NCBI RefSeq assembly: GCF_009811795.1 | Contig: NZ_BLJE01000002.1 | Location: 1,178,001 to 1,242,000, forward strand | DNA length: 64,000 bases | Origin: Litoreibacter roseus | GTDB lineage: Bacteria; Pseudomonadota; Alphaproteobacteria; Rhodobacterales; Rhodobacteraceae | Reading direction: 5' to 3' | Shown: positions 8,156 through 61,486 of the stretch, in pieces | Position numbering within the stretch: the stretch's first letter is position 1 | Layout: every line of letters begins with the position of its first letter | The notes under the pieces: generated by a model | What the model was told of the DNA's origin: nothing | What the model saw: the letters and a program-made list of their open reading frames with translations, nothing else | The model's database searches: none | Made by a program: the position numbers and the translations under genes

Positions 8156-9943
8156 ATGGCACAAATCCAAGGCGGTGAGGCCGAACGGGAAAAATCGAAA
8201 CGCATCGGCGCGCTGAAGGCGCTGTGGCCGTTTGTCAAACCTTACAGTCATCTGATGTTTGCCGCCCTCGCGGCCCTGACGGTCACCGCGGCCGTGTCAC
8301 TGGTGCTGCCCATGGCCGTCCGGCGGGTGGTCGATGGCTTCGGCACGGATCAGGCCGCACTGCTCGATGAATACTTCGGGGCCGCCCTAGGGGTCGCGGC
8401 ACTTCTGGCCGTAGGTACCGGGCTGCGATACTATCTTGTGACGCGGTTGGGTGAACGGGTTGTGGCCGACATTCGCAAGGCGGTGTTCGACCGAACCATC
8501 GGCATGAGCCCCGCGTTTTTCGAGCGCATTATGACCGGCGAGGTCCTCAGCCGGATCACCACCGACACCACGCTTTTGCTGTCGGTCATAGGCTCCTCCG
8601 TGTCCGTGGCGCTGCGCAATGTTCTGATCTTTGTGGGCGGGCTGATCCTGATGCTGCTGACCTCGGCCAAGCTGACCGCAATGGTGCTTTTGGTCGTGCC
8701 TGCAGTGATCGTGCCGATCATCGTTCTGGGCCGTCGCTTGCGCGTGCTCAGCCGGGAAAATCAGGACCAGATTGCTGCCAGTTCCGGCAACGCGTCCGAG
8801 GCCTTGTTGTCGGTCCAGACCGTGCAGGCCTTCACCCACGAGACACCGAGCCGCCGTAACTTCGCTGATTTCACCGAAGCCGCCTTCGTCGCGGCCCGTA
8901 AGCGCATCGGCACGCGCGCCATCATGACGGTCATCGTGATCTTCCTGACCTTCTCCGGCATCGTCGGTGTGCTCTGGGTCGGTGCGCGCGACGTGCGGGC
9001 CGATGTGATGACCGCGGGCGAACTGGTGCAGTTCCTGATCTATGCCATCATGGTGGCGGGCGGCGTCGCGGCCCTGTCCGAGATCTGGGGCGAGCTGCAG
9101 CGCGCGGCGGGTGCCACCGAACGTCTGGTCGAGCTTTTGACTGCAGATGACACCGTTATCGAACCGGATGCACCCCAGCCCGTGGGGCGTTTGACCGGCG
9201 AGGTGACATTCGAGGATGTGACCTTCCACTACCCCGCACGTCCCAGCATCGCTGCGCTGGACGGCGTATCACTCCATGTCAAACCGGGTGAGACCGTGGC
9301 GCTGGTGGGGCCGTCGGGTGCGGGCAAGACAACGATCATCCAACTTCTCTTGCGCTTCTACGACCCCGATGCAGGCCAGATCTGCCTTGATGGAACGCCG
9401 ATTCAGACCATGCTGCGGCAGGACTTCCGACAATCCATCGCGCTGGTCCCGCAGGACCCTGTGATCTTCGCCGCCTCCGCCCGCGAAAACATCCGCTTCG
9501 GACGTCCTGACGCCACAGATGCCGAGGTCGAACAGGCCGCAATCGCCGCCGCCGCGCATGCGTTCCTGACGGCCTTGCCGGATGGCTATGACACATATGT
9601 GGGCGAACGCGGTGTGATGCTGTCGGGTGGCCAGAAGCAGCGCATCGCCATTGCCCGCGCGATCTTGCGCGATGCACCGATCCTGCTTTTGGACGAGGCC
9701 ACAAGCGCCCTGGACGCTGAAAGCGAAGCGGCCGTCCAACAGGCGGTGGAAAGCCTGTCAGAAGGGCGCACCACGCTGGTCGTGGCCCACAGGCTGGCCA
9801 CGGTGAAGAAGGCCGACCGGATCATTGTCTTTGATCAGGGCCGGATCGTTGCCGAAGGCACACATGATGCGCTGGTCGCGCAGGAAGGGCTGTATGCACG
9901 ACTGGCCCGCCTGCAGTTCACCGCGGGGCTGGCGGCGGAATAA
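8156..9943 (+). CDS. ABC exporter, fused membrane and ATPase domains (MsbA-like)
   Basis: Half-transporter of 595 aa that works as a homodimer. Six transmembrane helices span about residues 25-310. The ATPase domain has Walker A GPSGAGKTT, signature LSGGQKQRIAIARAIL, Walker B LLLDEATSALD and the H-loop VVAHRLATV. The highly polar N-terminus ends in a Lys/Arg-rich stretch before the first helix. Lipid A flippase MsbA and generic multidrug exporters share this layout, so the substrate is undecided. No neighbour helps. The gene follows tRNA-Gly and has a GGAGG ribosome site. Confidence 0.88.
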   Translation: MAQIQGGEAEREKSKRIGALKALWPFVKPYSHLMFAALAALTVTAAVSLVLPMAVRRVVDGFGTDQAALLDEYFGAALGVAALLAVGTGLRYYLVTRLGERVVADIRKAVFDRTIGMSPAFFERIMTGEVLSRITTDTTLLLSVIGSSVSVALRNVLIFVGGLILMLLTSAKLTAMVLLVVPAVIVPIIVLGRRLRVLSRENQDQIAASSGNASEALLSVQTVQAFTHETPSRRNFADFTEAAFVAARKRIGTRAIMTVIVIFLTFSGIVGVLWVGARDVRADVMTAGELVQFLIYAIMVAGGVAALSEIWGELQRAAGATERLVELLTADDTVIEPDAPQPVGRLTGEVTFEDVTFHYPARPSIAALDGVSLHVKPGETVALVGPSGAGKTTIIQLLLRFYDPDAGQICLDGTPIQTMLRQDFRQSIALVPQDPVIFAASARENIRFGRPDATDAEVEQAAIAAAAHAFLTALPDGYDTYVGERGVMLSGGQKQRIAIARAILRDAPILLLDEATSALDAESEAAVQQAVESLSEGRTTLVVAHRLATVKKADRIIVFDQGRIVAEGTHDALVAQEGLYARLARLQFTAGLAAE

Positions 9944-12461: not shown

Positions 12462-12469
12462 GCCAGCCC

Positions 12470-12810
12470 AGAAGGCAAACCGCGCGACCCCTCAACTTGT
12501 CGCTTCGGCGGCACGCAGGGGACGCACGGCAGAGACCGGCCGCACCCTGTCGGCGGGCGCCATGTTGCGCGTGGATCTGACACGGGCGGTGCTTGGTCAA
12601 ACCGAGCTGATTGTGATCGACAACACCCGGTTGAGTGTCGACCTCGCCGCCGCATCTCTGATACAAAAACTGCGCAGACTCACCCACCCAATGGTGCTGA
12701 TCTCCGGGCCGCTAATTTGCCCTGATCTGGCAGACGGATGTATCACTGTGGCGGACAAAACTGGCCGCGACGTGCACCGCTTGGAACCCGCGCAGACCCA
12801 AGGGACCTGA
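12470..12810 (+). pseudogene. Decayed C-terminal fragment of an ABC ATPase
   Basis: The frame is open from inside the preceding gene to TGA 12810. The piece LSAGAMLRVDLTRAVLGQ followed by TELIVIDNTRL aligns with the ABC signature LSGGQxxRxALARALL and the Walker B region, but the signature glycine/glutamine and the catalytic glutamate after Asp are lost. The rest (SLIQKLRRLTHPMVLISG, then LADGCITVADKTGRDV) resembles the H-loop region with the histidine missing. No Walker A precedes it. It ends 4 bp before the sensor kinase ATG. It could still be translated from ATG 12562 as an 82-aa protein, so pseudogene versus degenerate small protein is not settled. Confidence 0.5.
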
Positions 12811-47660: not shown

Positions 47661-49352
47661 ATGGATGACCCAATTCTCAGCTCATACCTGAAAGAATTTA
47701 CGAAAAACTTTGATCTTGAAGGGCAAAAGGAAGCAGACGTCTTTGAGTTCTTCTCGGCTTATAGTGTTTTGCATCGTGATTTTTCGGAGCATACCAACTT
47801 AGCGGATGTAGTCGTCGCAGGTGGGCTTGACACCGGTATTGACGCGATTGGTATGTATCTAAACGACATACCTGTCGTCAGCACCATGCAAGTAGACGAA
47901 GTTTCAGCGAAGCAGAAGATAGATGCAGATTTTTGCTTTATACAGTCAAAAACATCACGCAATCTGAATTCGGCGGAGATAGGAAATTTCGTTCAAGGAG
48001 TAAAAGAATTCTTTGGTCGAAGGTACATGCCTGCAAATGATAGCATTGCGGATAAACGTGAATTGTCTGACCACATTTTTTCTAATAGCGTCAAGATGCG
48101 AGCTAAGCCAAGATTGCATCTCTACTATTGTTACAGCGGTTCGTTCAAAGGTGATCCTGCTATCGAAGCACGAGTGGCTGCGGGAAAGGCGGAACTCATG
48201 GAGTTCAACTTATTCTCTGAAGTAAATTTTTTGTTTGTTGATGCTGATAAGCTGCAAGCTCGATACCAAGAAGTAAACCTTCGGGTGGAGCGCGAAGTAC
48301 AAATAAACGAATATGCCGCGCTTCCCCCGATCAACGGTATTAGGCAAGCCTACATCGGTGTGTTGCCATGCAAAGAATTGATTTCGCTTTTATCTAATTC
48401 AGAAGGAAAGCTGCACAAAGCGCTCTTCAATGAAAACGTTCGAGATTTTCTCAGTAGCAACCCAGTTAACAATGAAATCAAAGCCACGTTGCTATCAGTT
48501 GATAATCAGAGCCGACTTGCCGCATTGAACAATGGCATCACAATTGTCGCGAAGCGCATTCAGATCGTTGGCAAGAGGTTTGCACTTGGAGACTTTCAAA
48601 TTGTCAATGGTTGTCAAACGAGCCATATTGTTTTCGCAAATCAGCACCTTCTGACCGAAGACACCTCGCTTCCGGTAAAGCTGATTGAAGCTGAAGATCG
48701 AGATCTTGTGAATGAGATTGTTCGTGCGACGAATAGGCAAACGGAAGTCAAGGATGAAGCGTTCGTAGTGCTTGGAGAGTTCCACAAGCGGTTAGAACGC
48801 TTCTTCATGAGCGTGGATGATTTACCAGCAAATAAGATCGTTTATGAGCGGCGTAAAAGACAGTATTCTGACACGGCATACACGGCTCAGAACGTCGTCA
48901 CACTCACGTTTCTGACAAACAGCTTTGTAAGCTGTTGTCTTGAAAATCCTGTAGACGCGATAGACTATTATGGCGTTCTTCTAAAAAAATATGAAAAAAC
49001 AATGTTTGTCGAAGGTCACTCACTTTGGCCTTATCTTTTGTCAGCAAAAATTCTAAAGGAAGTCGAAAAACTCTGTGTTGGGAAGGCTCGCCCATCACTT
49101 TGGAAGTTTCGGTTTTTAATTTCTACTATGGTCCGACGTAGTTTTGGCGACTTTCCCAAGCTCACGAACGACAGAGATCAAGCTGCATACGCAAAGGCGG
49201 CCTTGAAACAGATCAATAACAAGAAAGAATTCGAAAAAAGAGTTAGAAAAGCAGAGAAGAGCATTGCTGCTGCTATGACTGAAAAGGGACGTGCATTCGA
49301 CAAAAGGAATGCTCATCAGGACCGTAAGTTCATTGCGGGCCTTCTTCAGTAA
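47661..49352 (+). CDS. AIPR family abortive-infection/phage-resistance protein
   Basis: Protein of 563 aa with the AIPR signature region: LAALNNGITIVAKRIQIVG, FQIVNGCQTSHIVFANQHLL, IVRATNRQTEVKDEAFVVLG and KIVYERRKRQYSD. These are the conserved parts of the AIPR domain found in Abi-type phage defence. It is a single gene, with no partner in the same direction. The mechanism of the family is not well known. It sits in the island with CRISPR-Cas and the methyltransferase, which supports a defence role. Confidence 0.82.
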   Translation: MDDPILSSYLKEFTKNFDLEGQKEADVFEFFSAYSVLHRDFSEHTNLADVVVAGGLDTGIDAIGMYLNDIPVVSTMQVDEVSAKQKIDADFCFIQSKTSRNLNSAEIGNFVQGVKEFFGRRYMPANDSIADKRELSDHIFSNSVKMRAKPRLHLYYCYSGSFKGDPAIEARVAAGKAELMEFNLFSEVNFLFVDADKLQARYQEVNLRVEREVQINEYAALPPINGIRQAYIGVLPCKELISLLSNSEGKLHKALFNENVRDFLSSNPVNNEIKATLLSVDNQSRLAALNNGITIVAKRIQIVGKRFALGDFQIVNGCQTSHIVFANQHLLTEDTSLPVKLIEAEDRDLVNEIVRATNRQTEVKDEAFVVLGEFHKRLERFFMSVDDLPANKIVYERRKRQYSDTAYTAQNVVTLTFLTNSFVSCCLENPVDAIDYYGVLLKKYEKTMFVEGHSLWPYLLSAKILKEVEKLCVGKARPSLWKFRFLISTMVRRSFGDFPKLTNDRDQAAYAKAALKQINNKKEFEKRVRKAEKSIAAAMTEKGRAFDKRNAHQDRKFIAGLLQ

Positions 49353-49483
49353 AGTTCAGCGCGCTAGTCTTTACCGGTAAACTTCTGGATGCTTGAGGCC
49401 GGAATGACTACTTTGGCGAAGCTGCACTGCGGCATCGACCGACCACATCAATGGCCGGATTGGGCCGAACCAAACGGTTTTCT

Positions 49484-50440
49484 CTAAAGGGGGGCGAAAT
49501 CAGGCCAGTCTTCGCGCCAATATCTAGAGTTCTGTGGGTCGCGTCGAGCTTCACCAACGGCCTCAAAGCGATAGTGCTCCATGCTGTGGTGTTGTTGAAA
49601 ATTCTTCAGTGCTAAGCCAAATAGCCAAGACCCGAAAAACTGCAGTTCCAACCCATCAGACTCATCGAATTCGGCGCCACTACACGTGAACTGCCTTGCA
49701 TAGTTTTCGAAACCCAACATGCGTGGCGGGCAATGTGCGACAATGTCTAAGTGTCGACGAGTCGCAAAAATGCGGGAGGTCTCTATCAAGCTGGATAGCT
49801 TCCCAACTCTTGGGGAACCGAATATGTAGCAATCGTTGATTGGAACCTGAAATTGCATCTGATTCAGCAAAGCGGCGATGGCGCCACCCAGTGAGTGCCC
49901 CGATAGATAGATTGCACAATCAGATTTTGAAATTCTGTCTGCCATTTTACTGCTTAAACAGTCTCGAATAGCTGAGGCTAGTTCCTCAGCCTCGTTCAGA
50001 AAGCCTCGGTGGATTCGGCCGCCGAAGCTAGAATTGGATTTAAACGCGTTTAAATTAACCAGCCAATCGTACGCGAATTGGGTGCCACGCACTGCGACAA
50101 AGATGAATGTACGAGCCGGGATTAGCACCGCAACTGATCGTCTGGTGCGAATAACATGCACGCCTTGAAAGTCGAGGCTTTCGAGCGCGTCTGCAAAGTC
50201 GAATTCTTCGCCAATGACAAGCCTTTGAAACATCTCGCAAGGCACCAATTTTGCCCGCGAATGATTGTTCCGCTCTTCTTCTCCAATCGCGCAATAGGCC
50301 AAATGTGCCAAAATACTAGATGCCGCATTTCTTGTTACTTTAAATTGGCCCCGCTCTCTCGACCAATGAGACTGATTAATTAACAGCCAAAGTGGTCCAC
50401 CTACTTGTCTAACTTCTTCTCGCGATGCTGGTTGTAACAT
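49484..50440 (-). CDS. Lipase class 3 family protein
   Basis: Alpha/beta hydrolase of 318 aa. It has the nucleophile elbow IYLSGHSLGGAIAALLNQM, then the Asp-bearing FGSPRVGK and DIVAHCPPRM. The oxyanion-side motif VAVRGTQFAYDWLVNL is family-typical. There is no signal peptide, so it is cytoplasmic or secreted by another path. It could be a phospholipase-like effector or defence enzyme; nothing in the sequence decides. The 131 bp to the AIPR stop show no gene. Confidence 0.82.
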   Translation of the reverse strand: MLQPASREEVRQVGGPLWLLINQSHWSRERGQFKVTRNAASSILAHLAYCAIGEEERNNHSRAKLVPCEMFQRLVIGEEFDFADALESLDFQGVHVIRTRRSVAVLIPARTFIFVAVRGTQFAYDWLVNLNAFKSNSSFGGRIHRGFLNEAEELASAIRDCLSSKMADRISKSDCAIYLSGHSLGGAIAALLNQMQFQVPINDCYIFGSPRVGKLSSLIETSRIFATRRHLDIVAHCPPRMLGFENYARQFTCSGAEFDESDGLELQFFGSWLFGLALKNFQQHHSMEHYRFEAVGEARRDPQNSRYWREDWPDFAPL

Positions 50441-50840
50441 CCTTTTGTCTCCTTCGAAATTAATTCAAAAAAATAGGAAAATGTGAGGTGGATCGGCACT
50501 CAGCATAACGATGAAATCAGTTGGCTCCAGATTATCACACTGCACATATTCTCTAGGACAACAGAACGGATAGAGTCAAAATTATTCGTATTGGCGGTCA
50601 AGGCGGCTCCGACGAAGCTCTGCAAAGATGTGCCGCGTCGCAGCAATAATGCTGAGATTTAAGATCGGCTTAGGCCGTTCGTTTCGATATTTTCTGGGCC
50701 GAGCCCCTATGATGCTGTGGACCGGAGAACGGCAGGAATGGGCCCAGAATGACAGATGCTGCGAGCTGCACCAATATCGGCTTTGTCGGAAACTGACCGT
50801 ACAAATGAATTCGCCTTGAGATCGATTTTCCTGAGAAGCG
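50441..50840. other. Non-coding interval
   Basis: No gene is convincing here. It holds the lipase promoter and the end of the leftward exported-protein gene. Confidence 0.35.
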
Positions 50841-51227
50841 TTAAAGCCCACAATGCTCCACTTCACGGCATTCTCGTGCCTGTAGGTTACCGAGGGAAAA
50901 GTGTCCGTATCCTGAAACTATTGATCCACGGGCAGTAGCACCCGGAGCCACTAAAACAAAAGGACAAAACGGCATCGTGATCAATCGGCCTAAATGTTCT
51001 CCGTTCCTCAGAATTTGTTGATTCACCACCGCGCAAGTGTCGCAATTGTTCGTTATGTCCCAATTGTAAGAAATTCTAGGATTTTGCGGAGTGCCCGTAT
51101 TACTACCCACCGGCGCGTTACGAACCTGAAAACAGGATGGATCTATAGAGGTGTCCGCCTGGATGGGCCTTGGCGAGATGAGGAGGAGTGCTATAAAAAT
51201 AGGGGCTAATCTTCTTTCACTATTCAT
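50841..51227 (-). CDS. Small exported protein, cysteine-rich
   Basis: Protein of 128 aa with a signal peptide (APIFIALLLISPRPIQA, cleavage after IQA). The mature part is rich in Cys (DPSCFQVRN, NNCDTCAVVN, PFCPFVL, ECREVEHC) in pairs that suit disulfides. It follows the beta-propeller-like exported gene after a 20-bp gap in the same direction. No family is recognised. Confidence 0.65.
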   Translation of the reverse strand: MNSERRLAPIFIALLLISPRPIQADTSIDPSCFQVRNAPVGSNTGTPQNPRISYNWDITNNCDTCAVVNQQILRNGEHLGRLITMPFCPFVLVAPGATARGSIVSGYGHFSLGNLQARECREVEHCGL

Positions 51228-51247
51228 GTCTTGTCCTTGACTGGGAT

Positions 51248-52774
51248 TTACCGACTTAAAGTCACTGGAGGGCGGCCTAAGAGTTCATCGATTTGACGAG
51301 ATGCCTCTTGAAAGAGTGGTAACAGATTTCCGTCGGTAGCGATTTGGCGAATGTAGGACAGCACCTCTAGTGCTGCCTCATAATCACCGTTTTTCGCATA
51401 TTTTTCTGCGGATAAAAAAAGTGAAAGCCCGTCAACACTGGCTAAGGTCCGTTCAAGATCACGTTCACGTTCGCAGCGTGCGGCCATTGGTGCTCCAGGA
51501 ATGCGGTCATCCAGTAGGCCTACTCGTGCGCAGTCTTCAGAACTCAATGCAGAAGCACGCTCGGCTTCATCATTCCATATTTCTGGTTCTTGCGGGTTCT
51601 GGATTATAAAGCGGCTTGTTGCATCACCCTGATAAGCAGGCCAGCTACTAGGTCCTATACTAACGCTAGAGCTGCCTTCTGATACAATGACGCCACCACC
51701 ATTTGGAGTGAATTGAGCACCAACCCATCGACCGCCGTATTCACCCACAGGATCACGAAAAAACTCGCTTTTATATATACGAAATCCCAGACCTGAGGAA
51801 AGATCAACCGGTGTAACATAAACATCCACTCGCGCTTGGCGTGCGCGACCCTCGTTACGAACTGTGCGAACAATTACAAGTAGGCTGCGCCCACTAGGGG
51901 AAATAGAAGCAGCGGTGAATGATCGGACGCAATTATACTTTGGAGGATAAAGTGTTGTAATCTGCCGGCTACGGAACCAGCGTTCATCTTCTTCGGGTAC
52001 AGATGCCGAAAGTGAATAACGTGAAATGACGGAGGCTTGTGGATTGAGCGGATTCCCTGGGGCTCGAACCAGGAGCACATCACCGAACAAAACTGTTAAA
52101 ATGCGGATGCCTTCAGGCGTAACAGAATATGTTAAGGCACGCTCAGCGAATGGTCGTCCATCTGAGTGAGAGCGATAAAACCCATTGGCTATGCGACAGT
52201 GGGTCACGATTTCCTCATCGCGGTTGAAGCGAAGCGCGTTTATTGAAGAAGAGTTTGGCTCGTCACCTTCGTATCCATAATCGACAGGATTCCACCTCGA
52301 AACAGCTTCAGCGCCAGTTATAAGCTTACCCAATGGACCTCGTCTTAAGAGGCCACGTTGAGGTGCAATGATGCGCTCGATCACGGTCCCATCGAGCGTG
52401 ACGGAGACATGTTGACCTTCTCTAAGCAAAAGCAGGCTTGGAAATCGAGGGTCGAAAGGTTGTGGACCTATAGGAGGCGTCGCTTTAAGTGCCTGTGTAC
52501 CGCGCGGGTTACGCTGCCATTCTCTCACGCCCGGGATGTGAAAACCCTCCAACATTGCAATCTGGTTTAAAGTGCCCCTGGAGAGAGTTGAGACTCTCAC
52601 ACCGTTGGATTCTCGCGTGGCTACAAGTGTTCCATCCCCACTGATGGCGAAGCGCTCGGTGGGGAAAGGGAAGCTTTGGATCGCATTGTCCTGAGCAATG
52701 GCGCGCCCATCTAAAAGTGTAGCAGTGACCAATATGGCGAAAAATACTGCTATAAAATAATTGGATTTTCCCAT
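51248..52774 (-). CDS. Exported beta-propeller-like protein
   Basis: Protein of 508 aa from ATG 52774. The signal peptide is NYFIAVFFAILVTATLLDGRAIA. The mature part has repeated beta strands (ERFAISGDGTLVATRESNGVRVS, SFTAASISPSGRSLLVIVRT) like WD/propeller blades. The C-terminal 80 residues are helical (LFLSAEKYAKNGDYEAALEV), TPR-like. Two starts upstream are weaker. It forms a pair with the small cysteine-rich exported gene. The function is unknown. Confidence 0.65.
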   Translation of the reverse strand: MGKSNYFIAVFFAILVTATLLDGRAIAQDNAIQSFPFPTERFAISGDGTLVATRESNGVRVSTLSRGTLNQIAMLEGFHIPGVREWQRNPRGTQALKATPPIGPQPFDPRFPSLLLLREGQHVSVTLDGTVIERIIAPQRGLLRRGPLGKLITGAEAVSRWNPVDYGYEGDEPNSSSINALRFNRDEEIVTHCRIANGFYRSHSDGRPFAERALTYSVTPEGIRILTVLFGDVLLVRAPGNPLNPQASVISRYSLSASVPEEDERWFRSRQITTLYPPKYNCVRSFTAASISPSGRSLLVIVRTVRNEGRARQARVDVYVTPVDLSSGLGFRIYKSEFFRDPVGEYGGRWVGAQFTPNGGGVIVSEGSSSVSIGPSSWPAYQGDATSRFIIQNPQEPEIWNDEAERASALSSEDCARVGLLDDRIPGAPMAARCERERDLERTLASVDGLSLFLSAEKYAKNGDYEAALEVLSYIRQIATDGNLLPLFQEASRQIDELLGRPPVTLSR

Positions 52775-53178
52775 GACAAGATCAACCCCCGTTACCTGAA
52801 ACAATGATAGCCTAGCACCAAGATTCTAAGTGTGTCTCGAAAAAATCCTTAGCAAGAGCAGATCTTGATGTGTCGCGAAGCGAAACTCCGCTTTGTCCCG
52901 CAAATTGCCAGTTCGATCCGTTTCAGATTTGCAGTTGCAGCAAAGGTCAGCGAAGTGTGCTGCGACCGAAGCATCTAATGAATCTGGCTAAGATCGATTT
53001 CGGACCGCGAGCGATTCAGAATCCTCTTCTCACTCGCGCCACAACTGGGAGCGATCAAGAAAATTTGTATGTGACATAATCAAAACTATGTAGGACAGGA
53101 TTAAAAAGAAGAGCTTTTGTTGGACACATCCGACGGTTGTGCGGGATGATCTGAACAGACCACGAGCACAACAGCAGA

Positions 53179-53290
53179 AAAATGCGACGGACCGGATAGT
53201 TCGCCGCATCAAGGTCTATCGGGCAGGACGACGATAGGCCAGTTCGGCTTTGATGTTTTTCAAAGACTGCCGTGCATTCCGGCGCGCAAC
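53179..53290. repeat. Decayed second copy of the H-NS-side terminator repeat
   Basis: AATGCGACGGACCGG...TTCGCCGCAT, then GCCAGTTCGGCTTTGATGTT, then TGCATTCC correspond to 46389-46474 around the H-NS terminator. Read leftward, both copies share the coded stretch NIKAE. The hairpin here has lost perfect pairing. The surrounding gap 52775-53661 holds no other supported gene. Confidence 0.55.
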
Positions 53291-53623
53291 GGAATCTTTA
53301 GGTGCTACTGAAGCTGTCAGAGCAGCTTCTCGAAAAAGACCCCGCAGTGCTGCGGGCGGCAGCTTCAAATTGAGTAACAAGTTTCATGTGATCCTCCATC
53401 TCTTGGGAGGCCCCGAACCACTCAGGGCCTTTCGGCCCGACCCACATCAGAGGCTCTGATTGGATCGGTGGACGTCTTGGAGATCTGGAATCACGTGACT
53501 GACAAAGATACTTATTGAAGCTACCGCGAAGTGCGCGAACGAGTTTGAAACAATATATATGCTCCTTCAGTCTATGTGATAACTTATAGATACCCTGTTT
53601 GCATTATATAGGTCATTGATATA

Positions 53624-53648
53624 TACTCTTTAGTAAATTGAAAGAGTA
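53624..53648 (+). promoter_or_regulatory. Operator candidate before the HTH/Fic pair
   Basis: The 8-bp inverted repeat TACTCTTT / AAAGAGTA with a 9-nt spacer lies 14 bp before the ATG of the HTH-containing mobile mystery A gene. It would suit autoregulation by that protein. Confidence 0.45.
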
Positions 53649-53661
53649 GGTATTTATACCC

Positions 53662-54129
53662 ATGTCCAGCGTGAAAGATACAGCAATTCGACAATATGCG
53701 CGTCAGCTTGATGACGCGGCAAGGCAGTGTGCCGGTCTGACCCCACCAAAAGAAGGTTGGATCACAACCATGCGCAAAGCACTTGAGATGTCCGCACCAG
53801 AACTGGCGCGCCGTCTGGGCGTGACCAAGCCCGCGATCTATCAGGCAGAGCGCAAGGAGCGCATAGGTGGTATCACTCTCCAGCATATGGAAAGACTTGC
53901 GGAAGCCATGGGCGGAGAATTTGTCTACGCAATCGTACCCAACGCGAGCGTGCGCGACGTTCTCTATTCGCAAGCCCGGGAAAAGGCGAAGCAAACGGTA
54001 AAGCGTGCCAGCGCCCATATGGCTTTGGAGCAGCAGTCTTTAACGCCGCAGCAGCTCAACCAGGAAATCGAGCGACTTGCCGAAGAGCTCTTGCGCGACC
54101 GACCGTCTGATTTTTGGGAGGCATCTTGA
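53662..54129 (+). CDS. Mobile mystery protein A (XRE-type HTH)
   Basis: Protein of 155 aa. The HTH at about 40-80 reads MSAPELARRLGVTKPAIYQAE, followed by GITLQHMERLAEAMGGEFVY and a helical tail. This is the mobile mystery A pattern, always paired with a Fic protein on mobile elements. It likely acts as antitoxin and autorepressor, by analogy to HTH-Fic pairs. Its stop overlaps the TTG start of the next gene. Confidence 0.85.
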   Translation: MSSVKDTAIRQYARQLDDAARQCAGLTPPKEGWITTMRKALEMSAPELARRLGVTKPAIYQAERKERIGGITLQHMERLAEAMGGEFVYAIVPNASVRDVLYSQAREKAKQTVKRASAHMALEQQSLTPQQLNQEIERLAEELLRDRPSDFWEAS

Positions 54130-54728
54130 TATTCGAAGAGCCTGAAGGTGCGACACCGTTAGATCCCGATGAGATTGAAGGGCTCAGGTTCAGGCATGTG
54201 GTGACGCGTGGAGAACTGGACGAGCTAGAGCAAGCCAACATCACCCAAGGTCTGCAATGGCTCGGACGCCGCCGGGGCGGTGATATTTTAACTGACGAAT
54301 TTGTCCGCCGCTTGCATGAGCGGTTGTTTGGAGATGTCTGGGATTGGGCAGGTACCTATCGTCTTCGCGAAAAAAACATCGGCATCGATCCGTTTCAGGT
54401 TCCGATGCAACTTCGTATGTTGCTCGGTGATGCGCGATACTGGGTGGAGCATAACGTATACCCGCCACTGGAAGCCGCGGCGCGGTTTCACCATCGCATG
54501 GTGCAAATCCATCCGTTTCCAAACGGCAATGGACGTCACGCCCGCATCGCGGCAGATGTACTTCTTGCCGATCACTACAATCACCCCGCTATCGAATGGG
54601 CCAGCGGGTTCGATCTACAAGCCGACAATCAGCGGCGTATAGAATATATCAAAGCGCTCCGGGCTGCTGACAAAGGAGAGATAGAGTTGATGCTGGCGTT
54701 TGTTGGAGGAACAAAGCCCAAAGGGTGA
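54126..54728 (+). CDS. Mobile mystery protein B (Fic domain)
   Basis: Protein of 200 aa. The Fic core is VQIHPFPNGNGRHARI with the catalytic histidine at about residue 129, and the loop LFGDVWDWAGTYR is typical of Fic folds. Fic enzymes transfer AMP to target proteins. It starts at TTG 54126, preceded by GGGAGG; an ATG is not available. No inhibitory helix is seen inside, so inhibition would be by protein A. It lies directly before the CRISPR-Cas locus. Confidence 0.88.
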   Translation: MIFEEPEGATPLDPDEIEGLRFRHVVTRGELDELEQANITQGLQWLGRRRGGDILTDEFVRRLHERLFGDVWDWAGTYRLREKNIGIDPFQVPMQLRMLLGDARYWVEHNVYPPLEAAARFHHRMVQIHPFPNGNGRHARIAADVLLADHYNHPAIEWASGFDLQADNQRRIEYIKALRAADKGEIELMLAFVGGTKPKG

Positions 54729-54824
54729 GCAACTCCAACGATGGGAAAAACCGGCTGCGGCAGTTTCGATATAAACGGCAATACGCGGAAAGCGTCCCCT
54801 CCAATCAAACTACAAGGAAGACAA

Positions 54825-54915
54825 AGGTCAAAATAAGAAAGCGCAGGCCGTAGCCTGCGCTTTAATGTGGTGCAATCGAATGCTTGTTAACGGCTCGACC
54901 GCGAATTTTGAACAA
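54825..54915 (-). ncRNA. tracrRNA for the type II-C system
   Basis: Read on the minus strand, the RNA starts near 54914 with TGTTCAAAATTCGCGGTC. It pairs with the crRNA repeat over 54886-54914: 17 perfect bp ACCGCGAATTTTGAACA, then CGGCT and GTT with one mismatch and one bulge. A short single-stranded part follows, then the perfect 11-bp hairpin AAAGCGCAGGC-CGTA-GCCTGCGCTTT (54838-54863, given on the plus strand) and a T-rich end. It is divergent from cas9, whose ATG is 100 bp away. The exact 5' end needs mapping. Confidence 0.85.
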
Positions 54916-54920
54916 GACGA

Positions 54921-54948
54921 TATTTACAGAGAACTAAATCTTCTTCAA
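54921..54948 (-). promoter_or_regulatory. Predicted promoter of the tracrRNA
   Basis: On the minus strand TTGAAG (54948-54943) and TAAATA (54926-54921) are 16 bp apart. The predicted start point, 7 nt later, falls exactly at the beginning of the anti-repeat. The match to -35/-10 consensus is moderate. Confidence 0.55.
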
Positions 54949-55012
54949 GCGCTTTTCGGTTGATTTGACGCAGACAAGAAACCAAAATTGCTCGAATTTT
55001 AGGAGTGTGTTT

Positions 55013-58000
55013 ATGCGTCTTGGTCTTGATATTGGGACAAATTCGATAGGTTGGTGGCTCTATGCCACTGAACGCGGCCAGATAACTGAAGTCGTAGATG
55101 GCGGGGTGCGAATATTTTCGGACGGGCGCGACCCGAAATCTAAGGCATCGCTCGCCGTGGACCGTCGGGCGGCTCGAGCGCAGCGCCGCCGTCGCGATAG
55201 ATATCTGCGCCGCAAGGCTGCTCTGATGAAGCGTATGGCAGAAGCCGGGTTGATGCCAGCCGAACCAAGTGAGGCGAAAAAACTTGAGGCACTCGATCCG
55301 TATGCGCTCCGAGCCGAGGGATTGGATAAAGAACTGCCGCTCACTCATTTTGGGCGTGCCCTATTTCATCTGAACCAAAGGCGCGGTTTCAAATCTAATC
55401 GCAAGACCGATCGCGGTGATAATGAAAGCGGTAAGATAAAGAATGCGACTGCGCGGCTGGACCAAGCGATGATCATCAAAGGCGCACGAACCTATGGTGA
55501 GTTTCTGCACATGCGTCGCAGCACAGTCAGTGATCCGAAGCAAGTGCCATCCGTTCGTACCAGACTATCAGTCGCACGATGGGAAGACGCCGAAAAGGAG
55601 GAGGCGGGTTATGATTTTTATCCCGACCGCCGCCACCTGTCGGAAGAGTTCGCTAAGCTTTGGATGGCGCAGGCCATGTTTCATCCTAATGTCTTGACTG
55701 ATAACTTGCGTGATGAGATTGCTCTCGTCATCTTTCACCAGCGACCTTTAAAAACACCAGAGGTGGGGCTTTGCCTCTTCACCGAAGAAAAACGTATCCC
55801 CAGTGCGCATCCATTGAACCAGCGGCGCATTCTGGTCGAGACCGTAAATGCTCTGCGCATCGCAACACCCGGCGAACCGGTAACTGGTCTGACCACAGAA
55901 CAGCGCGATCAGATCATCCATGCATTGGACAACAAAAAACATACAAAAACACTGTCTGGCATGTCTATGACGCTCAAGGCGCTCGGCAAAATAATACGTT
56001 TGAGGCCGGATCAGTATTTTACACTCGAGACCGCGAACCGTGATGCCATTTCATGCGATCCAGTCCGCGCGAGCTTATCCGATCCTCGCCGATTCGGGCC
56101 CAACTGGTCTTCACTTTCTTCCGATGCACAATGGGACGTGATAAGTCGCATCCGCGACGTTCAAAGTGAGGCAGAGCATGAAGCGCTCATAAATTGGCTC
56201 ACATCCTTTAACGATCTTGACCGAGATCATGCCGTAGAAGTGGCACGTGCGCCTTTACCCGAGGGCTACGGGAGATTGGGTTTGACGGCGACCACCCGCG
56301 TATTTGCCAAGCTCGACGCGGATGTTATCCCATATAGTGAAGCAGTCGCACGGTGTGGCTGGCACCATTCGGATGATCGGACCGGCGAGGTGCTGACTGA
56401 GTTGCCTTACTACGGCGAAATCCTGACGCGTCATGTCATCCCTGGAAGCTATGACATAGAGGATGATGACATCAAACGCTATGGTCGCGTTACAAATCCT
56501 ACCGTTCATATCGGGCTCAATCAATTGCGCCGTCTGTTGAACCGGATCATCACAGTTCACGGTAAACCGGAAGAGATCGTCGTGGAATTGGCTCGCGATC
56601 TGAAGTTATCTGAAGACCAAAAACGAGACGTTCAGCGCGGCATCAAAAAAAATACCGAAGCTGCAATCCAGCGCGGGAAGAAGCTAGAAGAATTGGGTGT
56701 ACCCAATACCGGCGCCAATCGCATGGTTTTGCGCTTGTGGGAGGATCTCGGAGATGATGTCATGGTCCGAAACTGCCCTTATTCCGGCCAACGGATCAGC
56801 GCAGCGATGCTGTTTGACGGCTCCTGCGACGTGGATCATATCCTGCCATATTCCCGAACTCTGGATGACAGTTTCTCCAATCGGACGCTATGTTTGAAGG
56901 AGTTCAATCGAGAAAAGACTAATAAAACCCCTTGGGAAGCTTGGGGCAATATGGATCAGTGGGACGCGATCGCCGCTAATCTCAAGAACCTACCCAAGAA
57001 TAAGGCTTGGCGATTTGCCTCCGACGCCATGGAACGATTTGAAGGTGAAAACGATTTCTCAGCTCGAGCGCTTAAGGACACCCAGTATCTATCTCGCATC
57101 GCTCGCGCCTATCTGAATGCTTTGTATGATGGTGGAGACCAAGAATCGCATGTTTGGGTGGTACCCGGTCGACTCACGGAAATGTTGCGTCGACATTGGG
57201 GTTTAAACAGCCTTTTGTCCGATAAAAACGGCGCGGTTAAGACCAAAAACCGGACAGACCATCGTCACCATGCGATCGACGCTGCCGTGGTCGCGGCTAC
57301 GGATCGCTCTCTCATCCAACGTATAAGTAAAATAGCCAGTCGCGACGAACTTGTTGGTGCAGAACAGGTCGCTCGATCTGTCGCACCTCCATGGGAGGAT
57401 TTTCAAAAGGACGTAGCTTCCCAATTGCGGCGTATAATAGTCAGCCATCGCGCTGATCACGGTCGCATAGACCCCGTTGCCCGTAAGTCCGGAAACGACA
57501 GCACTTCCGGACAGCTTCACAACGATACAGCATATGGGTTAGCTCATGACGGAAAGGTGGTCAGTCGCAAGCCACTCATGTCACTTGGCGCAGGTGATAT
57601 CGCGATCAGCAAGCGCGGCGCGAATATCCGCGACGCAGATTTGCAACGTCATCTGGCGCGTGTGACACGTGGACTTGATGGAAAAGACTTGGAGAAAGCG
57701 CTATCGAATTTCGCAAATGCACCCAAATTACCTGATCAGTCTGACAACCCATACTTCCGAGTGCGCCGTGTGCGGATGGAAGACACATTGCAGAAAAGCG
57801 CTCAAGTTCAGGTTGCTGACAGGGATGGGAAGGTATTCAAAGCTTACAAAGGTGACAGCAATCATTGCTATGAGATTTGGCAACTTCCGAAAGGCAAGAT
57901 CAAATCGCAGGTGATTACAACCTTCGAGGCACATCAAACAGGCTTGGATAGAAAGCCGCACCCCGCAGCTAAGCGGCTATTGAGGGTTTTTAAACGTGAC

Positions 58001-58237
58001 ATGGTCGCTATTGAGCGGGATGGAGAAACGATCATTGGCTACATTCAGAAACTTGACGCCGCCAATGGACTCTTCATTGCGCCACATGCCGAGGCGAATG
58101 CCGATGCTCGCAATCGTGATAAGATCGATCCGTTTAAGCTTATTCAAATGAGTGCAGGCCCCCTTATCAAAGCGAATATCCGACGGGTTTATGTTGATGA
58201 AATGGGCCGTTTGCGAGATCCGAGACAACCTAAATGA
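55013..58237 (+). CDS. cas9: CRISPR-associated endonuclease Cas9, type II-C
   Basis: RNA-guided nuclease of 1074 aa, compact as in II-C. RuvC-I is GLDIGTNSIGWW with Asp6. The arginine-rich bridge helix is AARAQRRRRDRYLRRKAA. RuvC-II is EEIVVELARDLKLSEDQK with Glu525. HNH is CDVDHILPYSRTLDDSFSNR with Asp608, His609 and Asn632. RuvC-III is TDHRHHAIDAAVVAA with His752/His753 and Asp756. All catalytic residues are present, so it should be active. ATG 55013 follows TAGGAG; the upstream 16 in-frame codons are not needed. The PAM is unknown. Confidence 0.96.
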   Translation: MRLGLDIGTNSIGWWLYATERGQITEVVDGGVRIFSDGRDPKSKASLAVDRRAARAQRRRRDRYLRRKAALMKRMAEAGLMPAEPSEAKKLEALDPYALRAEGLDKELPLTHFGRALFHLNQRRGFKSNRKTDRGDNESGKIKNATARLDQAMIIKGARTYGEFLHMRRSTVSDPKQVPSVRTRLSVARWEDAEKEEAGYDFYPDRRHLSEEFAKLWMAQAMFHPNVLTDNLRDEIALVIFHQRPLKTPEVGLCLFTEEKRIPSAHPLNQRRILVETVNALRIATPGEPVTGLTTEQRDQIIHALDNKKHTKTLSGMSMTLKALGKIIRLRPDQYFTLETANRDAISCDPVRASLSDPRRFGPNWSSLSSDAQWDVISRIRDVQSEAEHEALINWLTSFNDLDRDHAVEVARAPLPEGYGRLGLTATTRVFAKLDADVIPYSEAVARCGWHHSDDRTGEVLTELPYYGEILTRHVIPGSYDIEDDDIKRYGRVTNPTVHIGLNQLRRLLNRIITVHGKPEEIVVELARDLKLSEDQKRDVQRGIKKNTEAAIQRGKKLEELGVPNTGANRMVLRLWEDLGDDVMVRNCPYSGQRISAAMLFDGSCDVDHILPYSRTLDDSFSNRTLCLKEFNREKTNKTPWEAWGNMDQWDAIAANLKNLPKNKAWRFASDAMERFEGENDFSARALKDTQYLSRIARAYLNALYDGGDQESHVWVVPGRLTEMLRRHWGLNSLLSDKNGAVKTKNRTDHRHHAIDAAVVAATDRSLIQRISKIASRDELVGAEQVARSVAPPWEDFQKDVASQLRRIIVSHRADHGRIDPVARKSGNDSTSGQLHNDTAYGLAHDGKVVSRKPLMSLGAGDIAISKRGANIRDADLQRHLARVTRGLDGKDLEKALSNFANAPKLPDQSDNPYFRVRRVRMEDTLQKSAQVQVADRDGKVFKAYKGDSNHCYEIWQLPKGKIKSQVITTFEAHQTGLDRKPHPAAKRLLRVFKRDMVAIERDGETIIGYIQKLDAANGLFIAPHAEANADARNRDKIDPFKLIQMSAGPLIKANIRRVYVDEMGRLRDPRQPK

Positions 58238-58315
58238 TCTAAGATTTGGTGGAAACTCAAGAAAGCAATACAATTAGTGCCTTAGCGATTCGTGTTTAAT
58301 TAGTGTGGTGATGTA

Positions 58316-59227
58316 TTGGATCAGATTATTGATATTGCGACGGACGGTCGGCATTTGTCACGCGACCGTGGATTTCTGAAAGTAACTGAAGACGGGGCCG
58401 AGATTGGCCGTACTCCGCTTGATCAGATCGCAGGAGTTATTGTACATGCACATGGTACAACGTGGTCCTCCTCTCTCTTGGTGGAGTTGGCTGAACGTGG
58501 TGCGCCGGTGGTCCTTTGTGCGGCAAACCACGCCCCAAAATCCGTGCTCATGCCTTTGGAAGGACATCATACGCAAGGCGCTCGGATGCGAGCGCAATGG
58601 CAAGCGAAAACACCTTTGATCAAGCAAGCTTGGAAACAGGTTGTCTCCAACAAGATAAAAATGCAGGCCGCTGCTCTCGGTGCTTTTGGTGAAGCACATG
58701 CACCTTTGGAGATGATGATCCGAAAGGTGACCTCTGGCGACAGTACGAATATTGAAGCGCAGGCCGCCCGATATTACTGGCCCCGCATGATGGGTTTAGA
58801 GTTTCGGCGCGACACCTCGGCCGACCAACAAAACGCGCTTCTTAATTATGGCTACACAGTCTTGCGCGCAGCGACTGCCCGCGCCGTTGTCGCCGCGGGT
58901 CTGAATCCGACAATTGGTCTGTTCCACGCGAACCGTGGCAATGCTTTTGCCTTGGCCGACGACCTCATGGAACCGTTTCGACCGTTGGTCGACTGCACCG
59001 TCAGGGCAATTGTGAAGGAACGTGGAACAGAGGTTGATATGGAAGCTAAACAGGTTCTTGCGGGACTAATCGCAACCGATCTGCCCTTGGGCAATGGCAT
59101 AACGCCAGTCTCGGTAGCGGTGATGAAACTTGCAACCTCTCTCGGACAAAGCTTCGAAACTGGCAAGCTCATCCTCGCCTTGCCGGAACCGCCAGACCCT
59201 CTCGTGATGGCGGGCTTGGGAAAATGA
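58316..59227 (+). CDS. cas1: CRISPR adaptation integrase Cas1
   Basis: Protein of 303 aa. The metal-binding residues are in NIEAQAARYYW (Glu), GLFHANRGNAF (His) and DDLMEPFRPLVDC (Glu/Asp), all intact. It starts at TTG 58316; the nearby ATG is out of frame. No cas4 or csn2 is present, as defines subtype II-C. It overlaps cas2 by 4 bp. Its role is to insert new spacers with Cas2. Confidence 0.95.
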   Translation: MDQIIDIATDGRHLSRDRGFLKVTEDGAEIGRTPLDQIAGVIVHAHGTTWSSSLLVELAERGAPVVLCAANHAPKSVLMPLEGHHTQGARMRAQWQAKTPLIKQAWKQVVSNKIKMQAAALGAFGEAHAPLEMMIRKVTSGDSTNIEAQAARYYWPRMMGLEFRRDTSADQQNALLNYGYTVLRAATARAVVAAGLNPTIGLFHANRGNAFALADDLMEPFRPLVDCTVRAIVKERGTEVDMEAKQVLAGLIATDLPLGNGITPVSVAVMKLATSLGQSFETGKLILALPEPPDPLVMAGLGK

Positions 59228-59568
59228 CAGCGACTGTCACACAATTATCAGGATATCGTCTTATGTGGATTCTTGTGATGTTTGATCTACCGACGGATAC
59301 CACGAAACAACGAAAGGATGCCGGCACTTTTCGCAACTTTCTGTTGGACGAAGGGTTCGAACGCAGCCAGTTTTCTGTTTATGCACGTTTCGTGAACGGG
59401 AAAGAGGCGTTTTCCACCCGGGTTAACCGTATCGAACGCAACTTGCCCGAGTCCGGTGATGTACAAATCCTCAATTTTACCGACCGACAATATCGTGATA
59501 TTGTGCATTTCTCCGATCAAGGTCGTCGTGAGGCTCGTGAAAATCCAAAACAGTTGGTAATGTTTTGA
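59224..59568 (+). CDS. cas2: CRISPR adaptation protein Cas2
   Basis: Protein of 114 aa with the ferredoxin-like start MWILVMFDLPTDTTKQRKD (catalytic-site Asp) and SQFSVYARFVNGKEA in the middle. ATG 59224 overlaps the cas1 stop; an alternative ATG at 59263 would give a protein starting right at the fold. It ends 73 bp before the first CRISPR repeat. Confidence 0.94.
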   Translation: MTATVTQLSGYRLMWILVMFDLPTDTTKQRKDAGTFRNFLLDEGFERSQFSVYARFVNGKEAFSTRVNRIERNLPESGDVQILNFTDRQYRDIVHFSDQGRREARENPKQLVMF

Positions 59569-59597
59569 TGCGGTTCGTACAGAAATCACACACAAGC

Positions 59598-59637
59598 ATC
59601 CAAATAAAGCCCTTCAGTTTCAGGACCTTATTTGGAT
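59598..59637. repeat. Inverted repeat beside the first CRISPR repeat
   Basis: ATCCAAATAA (59598-59607) and TTATTTGGAT (59628-59637) are perfect 10-bp arms with a 20-nt spacer. They end 4 bp before the first CRISPR repeat. It could terminate cas2 or crRNA transcripts, or anchor the adaptation complex at the leader. Confidence 0.6.
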
Positions 59638-59641
59638 ATCA

Positions 59642-60468
59642 AGTGTAGCTGTTCAAAATTCGCGGTCCAGCCGCAACTGGCCTTCAGATCATCCTTCAGC
59701 CAGTTCCAGTGTAGCTGTTCAAAATTCGCGGTCCAGCCGCAACTGATCCACACACGATTGACCGCCAATCCAAAGTGTAGCTGTTCAAAATTCGCGGTCC
59801 AGCCGCAACACCGGCAGCCGCCTTTCCGCTGGTGCGACAAGTGTAGCTGTTCAAAATTCGCGGTCCAGCCGCAACGAGAACGAAGCGTGGTGGCGCGAGA
59901 ACTGCAGTGTAGCTGTTCAAAATTCGCGGTCCAGCCGCAACGAACTGGCCAGCCAAAGGGTTACTTGGCGCAGTGTAGCTGTTCAAAATTCGCGGTCCAG
60001 CCGCAACTGTTACACTCTCTCCGCTCATGCGGTAAGAAGTGTAGCTGTTCAAAATTCGCGGTCCAGCCGCAACTCACCGCCTGACGAACACTAGGGTGTG
60101 ATAGTGTAGCTGTTCAAAATTCGCGGTCCAGCCGCAACTGCCCTTGGCCTCCGCTGGCTGGATCTGGCAGTGTAGCTGTTCAAAATTCGCGGTCCAGCCG
60201 CAACAAAGGACAGACATATCCGGTCGCGTCGCCGAGTGTAGCTGTTCAAAATTCGCGGTCCAGCCGCAACAGCGAGGCCCAACCGGTCAAAAACGCTCAT
60301 AGTGTAGCTGTTCAAAATTCGCGGTCCAGCCGCAACTAGGCAGCGGCGGCAGTCATCGGTCCGATGAGTGTAGCTGTTCAAAATTCGCGGTCCAGCCGCA
60401 ACCGAATGGCAAGCCGACATCTTGAAGGCCGCAGTGTAGCTGTTCAAAATTCGCGGTCCAACCGCAAC
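59642..60468. CRISPR. Type II-C CRISPR array: 13 repeats of 36 bp, 12 spacers
   Basis: Repeats begin AGTGTAGCTGTTCAAAATTC and end GGTCCAGCCGCAAC on the plus strand. All are identical except the last (60433-60468), where G29 becomes A. Spacers are 30 bp, except the seventh (60074-60102), which is 29 bp. The degenerate repeat marks the end far from cas2. The complement begins GTTGCGGCTGG and ends GCTACACT, the usual crRNA-sense form of II-C repeats, so crRNAs come from the minus strand. No spacer matches another place in this window by eye. Confidence 0.98.
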
Positions 60469-60502
60469 CGGGTGGCAACGGCCTAAGCCGCTCTATACCT
60501 CA

Positions 60503-61486
60503 ATGGAAAGGGATTCCGTACTTACCAACCTCAAAGGAGACGCTAAGATTTTATATGTAGGAAATTTCGGGCTTGTTGGGGCAGCAGTGCGATCATTATT
60601 TCTGACTTTTTTTTTAGCAGCCATGCTGCTAGATACCTCGCATTCATCGGCACAAAGTTTTGACGTTGAAAAACTGGCGGAGCGTCTACCCCCACAAGTT
60701 CTGGAAAAATTTCAGTTCGAAGATAATGGCGAATTGATCTCTGGGCCTGTACGCGCTCGCGGGGAACCAATCGATTACTCGGAACTCCTTGATGTCGAAC
60801 TTTTGAAGAGTGGTTTCTTAGATAGCATTTACAGCTGCGTCGAAGGCATTCACTACTGCGATCAAACTATATTCCGGCAAAGCTCAAAATCACTACCTCT
60901 AAAAGTAATTTCTGAGGACGGTATATTTGACCTTGATGCAGCAGAATTGGTGCATGAGGCTATCTTGCGCACGCTCGCGACACTCGGCTTTGAAGTTCCA
61001 GCAGAGGCTGACGAAAATAAATCCAGAATTACACTATATATTGGTTCCATAGATTACTTGCAAGATAAAACGAAGGCGCAAAGTGACAGATACGGCTTTG
61101 AACACTTCGAAAGGCTTCAAAAGAACCGTCCAATATCTTTAGTTGGGCAACTTCTAGATCGATTTCAGATAGAAGAACCAGATGACTACCGCTCGTGCTA
61201 CGTATCTACCCGCGAACGCGCAGAACTTGATCGGATTACGATTTATCTTGAGCCAAATGACTTAGATATCTGTCTTGCCCATAGCTTAATGTACTCACTG
61301 GGCTTTGGTGCAACAGGAGCCAACCTACCGACGGTGACAAATGTATCTGGTCGATTTCAAGCTGCGACTCTCTTAGACTTTATGTTCGTCGAATGGCTTT
61401 ATGATGAGGAGTTCCCGACTTCTAGCGGTATAGTTCCAATTAAAGAATTCCTAGAACATTCCCAATCTTCGGTGAATCGAAATTGA
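60503..61486 (+). CDS. Exported DUF2927-like protein after the CRISPR array
   Basis: Protein of 327 aa. After a polar start the signal-like segment is LFLTFFLAAMLLDTSHSSAQS. The mature part has cysteines in SIYSCVEGIHYC, RSCYVSTRE and NDLDICLAHS, and the late region LAHSLMYSLGFGATGANLP, which recalls DUF2927. Codon use is AT-rich. The ATG is only 34 bp after the last repeat, so its promoter must lie in or next to the array. A related pattern is seen in the protein at 40544-41140. Confidence 0.65.
   Translation: MERDSVLTNLKGDAKILYVGNFGLVGAAVRSLFLTFFLAAMLLDTSHSSAQSFDVEKLAERLPPQVLEKFQFEDNGELISGPVRARGEPIDYSELLDVELLKSGFLDSIYSCVEGIHYCDQTIFRQSSKSLPLKVISEDGIFDLDAAELVHEAILRTLATLGFEVPAEADENKSRITLYIGSIDYLQDKTKAQSDRYGFEHFERLQKNRPISLVGQLLDRFQIEEPDDYRSCYVSTRERAELDRITIYLEPNDLDICLAHSLMYSLGFGATGANLPTVTNVSGRFQAATLLDFMFVEWLYDEEFPTSSGIVPIKEFLEHSQSSVNRN

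Follow-up and report, generated by a model that had tools for sequence, protein, structure and literature searches.

A type II-C dual-RNA Cas9 locus with a predicted divergent tracrRNA in Litoreibacter roseus, and candidate natural single guides in related loci

In a 64,000-nucleotide stretch of the Litoreibacter roseus genome (hereafter the window) we observed a locus that, judged by its sequence, is real, complete and of the ordinary type II-C kind, and we consider it almost certain that it represents a dual-RNA Cas9 system. The reading of the interval beside cas9 as a tracrRNA gene is supported by its predicted pairing and structure, by covariation and by co-occurrence with Cas9 (Table 1). 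We propose that a minus-strand promoter beside cas9 would drive transcription of a tracrRNA starting at the anti-repeat, whose predicted length lies near the approximately 90 nt given in a preliminary description of this DNA. This RNA would pair with each crRNA repeat, and the duplex, once processed, would be gripped by Cas9 through the nexus and terminator hairpins. The spacers would then direct Cas9 to invading DNA, presumably with PAM-dependent cleavage, and Cas1-Cas2 would insert new spacers.

Table 1. Features of the window and of related loci, with positions counted within the respective stretch of DNA
Feature	Position	Strand	Basis or remark
Predicted tracrRNA, ~84 nt	54830..54913	-	Start near 54913 and end in the T-rich tail, both predicted
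Anti-repeat	54886..54914	-	Cofold with repeat
Nexus-like 3-bp hairpin GCA..UGC	54872..54883	-	Fold, 16-locus alignment, pair counts
Terminator hairpin, 11 bp	54838..54863	-	Pair changes across 16 loci
-35-like TTGAAG	54943..54948	-	By eye and column conservation; absent from consensus scan
Weak -10-like AAATAT	54920..54925	-	By eye; spaced 17 nt from the -35; agrees with consensus at 3 of 6 letters
cas9, 1074 aa	55013..58237	+	ATG start; in-frame TTG at 54965
cas1, 303 aa	58316..59227	+	TTG start; profile match
cas2, 114 aa	59224..59568	+	Profile match
CRISPR array	59642..60468	crRNA strand taken as -	13 repeats of 36 nt, 12 spacers
L120 candidate single guide	8714-8753 and 8506-8526	+	Guide match
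L035 candidate single guide	9315-9357 and 9102-9122	+	Guide match
L132 candidate single guide	1450-1486 and 1319-1336	+	Guide match
Hairpin, loop GTCCA(C/A)N	L120:8585-8601 and 8660-8676; L035:9253-9271; L132:1396-1411; L127:1357-1373; L028:6879-6892		
Looser form of the GTCCA(C/A)N hairpin	L128:954-969		

The minus strand of positions 54830-54914 carries, in order, the anti-repeat, a short nexus hairpin and the 11-bp terminator. These elements are divergent from cas9, with some 100 nt separating them from its ATG, in agreement with the placement directly upstream of cas9 described earlier. The anti-repeat lies outside the array and is complementary to the crRNA repeat, the cofold consisting of an 18-bp uninterrupted block, a G.G mismatch, 5 bp, a 1-nt bulge on the tracrRNA side and a further 4 bp. 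The preliminary description had a duplex with a 17-bp perfect block and one bulge; the pairing and the bulge stand, while the block is 18 bp long and the G.G mismatch comes in addition. This mismatch places a G at 54896 opposite a G of the crRNA repeat, an arrangement kept in 18 of 23 loci, and may correspond to the bulge that other systems are known to have. Of 8,406 45-nt stretches drawn from both strands of the window with the array removed, the anti-repeat is the lowest-energy partner of the repeat (-46.7 kcal/mol against a mean of -17.9, sd 4.4). The first two ranks are held by two overlapping stretches of it (-46.7 and -42.4 kcal/mol) and the next site elsewhere reaches -35.3 kcal/mol; none of these stretches thus offers a better anti-repeat than the one named in the preliminary description. 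Allowing at most one mismatch, the 16-nt core of the anti-repeat recurs at 14 places genome-wide, namely the 13 in the array and the tracrRNA site itself. Folded alone, the predicted tracrRNA pairs its anti-repeat with the nexus region instead of leaving it open.

The anti-repeat is followed by the nexus and 3' hairpins, the nexus being just 3 bp long with letters for its third pair in only 2 of 16 alignment rows. The terminator (54863-54838) has 11 pairs, 7 of them G-C, and a 4-nt loop followed by CTTATTTTGA, which bears out the perfect 11-bp hairpin with a T-rich tail reported previously. The predicted fold of 54913-54830 has an energy of -32.2 kcal/mol (z -5.5), equalled by 0 of 200 shuffles. 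Three tRNAs are the only Rfam families to reach the gathering score in the window, and the three matches within 54700-55050 all fall far under it (lowest E 0.69).

The two hairpins are retained in relatives. In an alignment of 16 loci (that of the window, twelve taken from a set of 198 family genomes and three from named records), 98.6% of 210 cells are paired, as against 33-59% in control alignments slid by 1-3 columns. Ten of the 14 hairpin pairs change on both sides, and within the terminator 9 of 11 do so. The anti-repeat and the repeat also change together in relatives: across 23 of 26 loci (L029, L041 and L123 being dropped) each repeat agrees with its own anti-repeat at 446 of 506 positions, and none of 5000 shuffles reaches this figure (mean 406.5, maximum 425).

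We then examined the distribution of the RNA with a covariance model for the tracrRNA of this clade (R1), itself a product of the analysis; the window RNA has no Rfam match at gathering score. At E 1e-6 this model recovers the tracrRNA in 23 of 394 family genomes, a Cas9 protein search at E 1e-30 recovers Cas9 in 28 of the 394, and both are present in 22. Thirteen of these 22, the window's own included, supplied rows to the model; the other nine RNA genomes supplied none, and all nine have Cas9. Those nine first appear in the 394-genome scan, and Cas9 occurs in 11 of such newly appearing genomes. The six Cas9 genomes lacking an RNA match comprise a fragment (G075) and five with Cas9s at 34-41% identity (G082, G108, G195, G285 and G330). 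The sole RNA match without a Cas9 match (G078, 70.7 bits) is a tracrRNA-like RNA at L058:226-313 (contig C9), near a contig end with only 225 bases upstream, in a genome rated 83% complete; this upstream sequence begins, by eye, with an apparent tRNA 3' end, and ARAGORN reports no tRNA in it. At the looser threshold of E 0.01, 31 of 198 genomes match the model, 14 at 70 bits or more and the other 17 at 24-33 bits.

A class-level scan with the same model (E 1e-5) yielded 15 of 385 genomes, including that of the window. In 13 of the 14 others the RNA is divergent from a cas9 start (31-77% identity) and less than 0.6 kb from it. The fourteenth (L131) was considered as an orphan tracrRNA and rejected, since by eye cas1, cas2 and a pair of repeat-like stretches lie next to it. 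G171, the one further species from the window's genus in the set, has neither the RNA nor Cas9, and for this reason the system looks accessory. One cas9 locus (G054) contains two tracrRNA-like copies 344 nt apart, at C19:12120-12209 and 12464-12553 (58.4 and 76.9 bits).

The case for the promoter rests on conservation and is weak by consensus: a consensus promoter scan of 54600-55200 reported none, and the -35/-10 pair is accordingly weak taken alone. In a gapless alignment of the 16 loci at the anti-repeat, T, T, G and A at positions -36 to -33 are kept in 13, 12, 11 and 13 loci respectively, and A at -12 is kept in 13, while in columns -32 to -14 the commonest letter occurs in just 4 to 9. 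Within the -10-like box the second-position A is found in 13 of 16 loci and the sixth-position T in 10 of 16. In ten further loci conservation of the -35 is weaker, at 6, 6, 7 and 5 of 10. Of the earlier proposal of a -35/-10 pair with a start exactly at the anti-repeat, the boxes stand through their conservation, though weak by consensus; the start at 54913, a G before the anti-repeat, is the one that the promoter geometry would predict. A clade-wide origin of these promoters from CRISPR repeats was considered and rejected, as identity to the repeat outside the -35/-10 is 112 of 462 positions (24%) in register against 18-31% when shifted, counted over 21 loci that show no overt degenerate repeat, L041 and L130 being left aside. 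Two individual loci do have a promoter that overlies a degenerate repeat, namely L132, with agreement at 20 of the 22 non-core positions, and, by eye, L127.

The products of the cas genes match their models over cut-off: Cas9 matches TIGR01865 (545 bits), Cas1 the type II model Cas1_NMENI (235 bits) and Cas2 its model at 71 bits. The Cas9 motifs GLDIG, ELAR, VDH(I/V)(L/I)PYSR and HHA(I/V)DAA correspond in alignment to those of the solved chain closest by sequence (9ar4), so that the RuvC and HNH motifs align; the match is confined to two stretches (87.7 and 131.1 bits). We take these motifs to contain the catalytic residues, and on that assumption the catalytic residues are intact, as had been stated. 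Among seven proteins in 47661-61483 (excluding those at 49484-52804), none matches a csn2 model, and the sole cas4 match is that of the Cas4g/Cas1g fusion model to Cas1 through its Cas1 part (71 bits against a cut-off of 560); the cas complement is thus cas9, cas1 and cas2 without csn2 or cas4. The array lies downstream of the cas genes and on the opposite strand, the minus strand being taken as that of the crRNA, since it is the repeat read from this strand that pairs with the tracrRNA. Twelve of its repeats are identical and that at 60433-60468 has one change; eleven spacers are of 30 nt and one is of 29 nt. At their 3' end the repeats carry TACACT, a -10-like box, and as each repeat thus has a box of its own the crRNAs may start one by one. 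With three Cas proteins over cut-off, 13 repeats and a predicted tracrRNA, the earlier account of a complete II-C system holds at the level of sequence, and the label "editor-type" attached to it is an extrapolation.

Precedents in print for type II-C, as far as the excerpts available of them go, indicate that the window locus is of a known kind. The system of Dinoroseobacter shibae encodes a Cas9 of 1079, a Cas1 of 303 and a Cas2 of 114 aa, so its three cas genes nearly equal those of the window in size, and the repeats are equal at 33 of 36 positions (PMC4607530, in excerpt); two related loci (L037 and L038) have the exact D. shibae repeat. The same excerpt describes II-C repeats with a promoter box at the 3' end and arrays antisense to the cas genes, and a portion of a second source describes II-C as an operon of three cas genes (PMC3936727). 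From these partial texts (PMC4607530, PMC3936727), the window resembles the Neisseria and Campylobacter II-C loci in its cas9-cas1-cas2 order, opposite-strand array, repeat-end promoter box and separate tracrRNA gene, and the placement of the tracrRNA varies within II-C, that of the window being divergent and directly upstream of cas9. A survey found tracrRNAs near cas9 for 79 Cas9s through anti-repeat and terminator, much as here (PMC7606464, in part). Our literature search returned no paper on a type II-C tracrRNA in Rhodobacteraceae, and none of the papers on Roseobacter tracrRNA or Cas9, judged by title, concerns such a locus. The window adds to these precedents a well-supported yet ordinary II-C dual-RNA system.

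The spacers of the window array gave no recognised protospacers: the array has no match in phages, and none of the four spacers (of 12; 20 nt of each) searched against viral contigs was matched. Against plasmids 43 records match, and the one examined, a Pseudosulfitobacter plasmid, contains a small array remnant. The arrays of three relatives (L031, L027 and L038) likewise have no phage match, and that of L030 has four weak records (84-89% over 35-38 nt). The missing protospacers, together with the weak -10 and the existence of decayed relatives, such as L041 with a broken cas9 and an intact tracrRNA and L075 with a split cas1, could be taken to mean that the tracrRNA is silent or decaying, its sequence intact and the system inactive. 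We regard this as improbable, given that cas9, cas1 and cas2 are all open, 12 of the 13 repeats are identical and the anti-repeat matches the repeat.

We also measured the DNA between the tracrRNA and cas9 in 26 loci, the window included. Two of these (L041 and L130) give no fair gap because cas9 is broken or incomplete. The distance from anti-repeat to cas9 is 74-141 nt in 19 loci and 274-446 nt in five (L028, L035, L120, L127 and L128), and four of the five long gaps contain a degenerate repeat in crRNA orientation, with z, against simple shuffles of the gap, of 11.6 in L127, 8.1 in L120 and 3.9 in both L035 and L128. In L028 a degenerate repeat is seen only when the 60 nt preceding the anti-repeat are compared with their dinucleotide shuffles (z 2.96, 3 of 300), and in L125 (gap 141) a repeat-like match lies in the other orientation (z 3.6). 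Fifteen additional loci, 14 from the class scan and one from a plasmid, brought the related loci examined to 40 (L131 having no cas9 in its stretch), and among the fifteen a degenerate repeat was found in L132 only (z 5.0, gap 206).

In three of the 40 related loci (L120, L035 and L132) the 9-12 nt before the degenerate repeat match DNA upstream of the locus's own cas9, oriented as a Cas9 target would be. The matches of 11, 12 and 9 nt end 20, 16 and 25 nt from the ATG respectively, the matched DNA lying 16-33 nt upstream of it. None of the three guides has a longer suffix match within its own locus, the L120 guide having one suffix match of at least 9 nt in 10 kb, the L035 guide one of at least 8 nt in 11 kb and the L132 guide one of at least 8 nt in 3.1 kb. 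The L132 match is just 9 nt and was first detected with shifts of up to 3 nt allowed, and the control-window fraction for L120 (0.075 of 80) is not clean, since self-matches may fall in the control windows (maximum 30 in some loci). No guide match to the cas9 upstream region was found in L127, L128 or L028, and by eye the PAM-side flanks of the three targets have no clear common motif. In one-strand folds of L120, L035 and L132 the degenerate repeat pairs with the anti-repeat of the same RNA; the L120 fold also pairs the 11-nt guide, an arrangement unfavourable to free guiding unless Cas9 were to open it. A further shared element is the string GGGTCCA(A/C)(A/G/C)CC, usually in a hairpin, which occurs at nine distinct places in 145 loci, seven in long gaps and two elsewhere. 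Within the gaps the string is present three times in L120 (once on the other strand) and in L035, L132, L127 and L028, and in none of L120, L127, L128, L035 and L028 does the long-gap hairpin match an Rfam family at gathering score.

This arrangement recalls tracr-L of the II-A system of S. pyogenes, a natural single guide (PMC8616872, PMC11417352, both in excerpt) whose match to its promoter is 11 nt and which a 2021 review, in the portion available, describes as not found in other subtypes (PMC8616872). The likeness, against those excerpts, holds for L120, L035 and L132 only, in which guide, degenerate repeat and tracrRNA lie on one strand with a match upstream of cas9; these loci differ in being II-C where tracr-L is II-A, and the window has no such element. 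Neisseria has a different II-C scaRNA (PMC13431127, in part), and the literature as available in excerpt yielded no II-C case resembling tracr-L. We tentatively posit, with the balance tipping slightly against us, that the gap in this II-C clade is a regulatory slot, in which the candidate single guides of L120, L035 and L132 would lead Cas9 to bind its own gene and repress it without cleavage, the slot of the window being empty. If the guides in these relatives do repress cas9, RNA-guided self-control by Cas9 would extend beyond the II-A tracr-L; the guide and target pairs are testable by mutation and carry more weight than the window locus itself. That the window interval also yields a long form guiding Cas9 to repress cas9, in the manner of tracr-L, is very unlikely: such a layout occurs in 3 of 40 related loci, but the window gap of about 100 nt contains no degenerate repeat (z -0.47), the stretches before the 13 array repeats match the cas9 upstream region over at most 6 nt, and no tracr-L type single guide was found there.

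The window array, scanned against the family with a limit of E 1, matched 176 of 198 genomes, most of the matches listed being weak. A repeat-like stretch occurs in a genome without a Cas9 match (G123:C1:2371044-2371089), and a small second repeat cluster lies apart from the main locus in another (G081:C3:20580-20683). Such stray repeats away from arrays are what could be cited for a chance hairpin beside an inverted stray repeat with no RNA gene in the window, a reading that is scarcely credible, being already disfavoured by the covariation and the co-occurrence with Cas9.

Regarding the wider neighborhood of the ordinary II-C locus, genes for mobile mystery proteins A and B (HTH and Fic) lie directly behind the tracrRNA terminator (53662-54728) and were not found in 21 other loci searched, some with short flanks. 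An AbiU-like defence protein (47661-49352; PADLOC E 5.6e-112) is encoded about 5.5 kb from the tracrRNA. Related systems also occur on plasmids, Pseudosulfitobacter pseudonitzschiae accounting for 37 of the 58 plasmid records that match Cas9. On one plasmid of this species (NZ_CP086948.1; L075, L145) a cas9 at 61% identity lies 97 nt from the tracrRNA, and an IS66 transposase gene lies between the two parts of a divided cas1.
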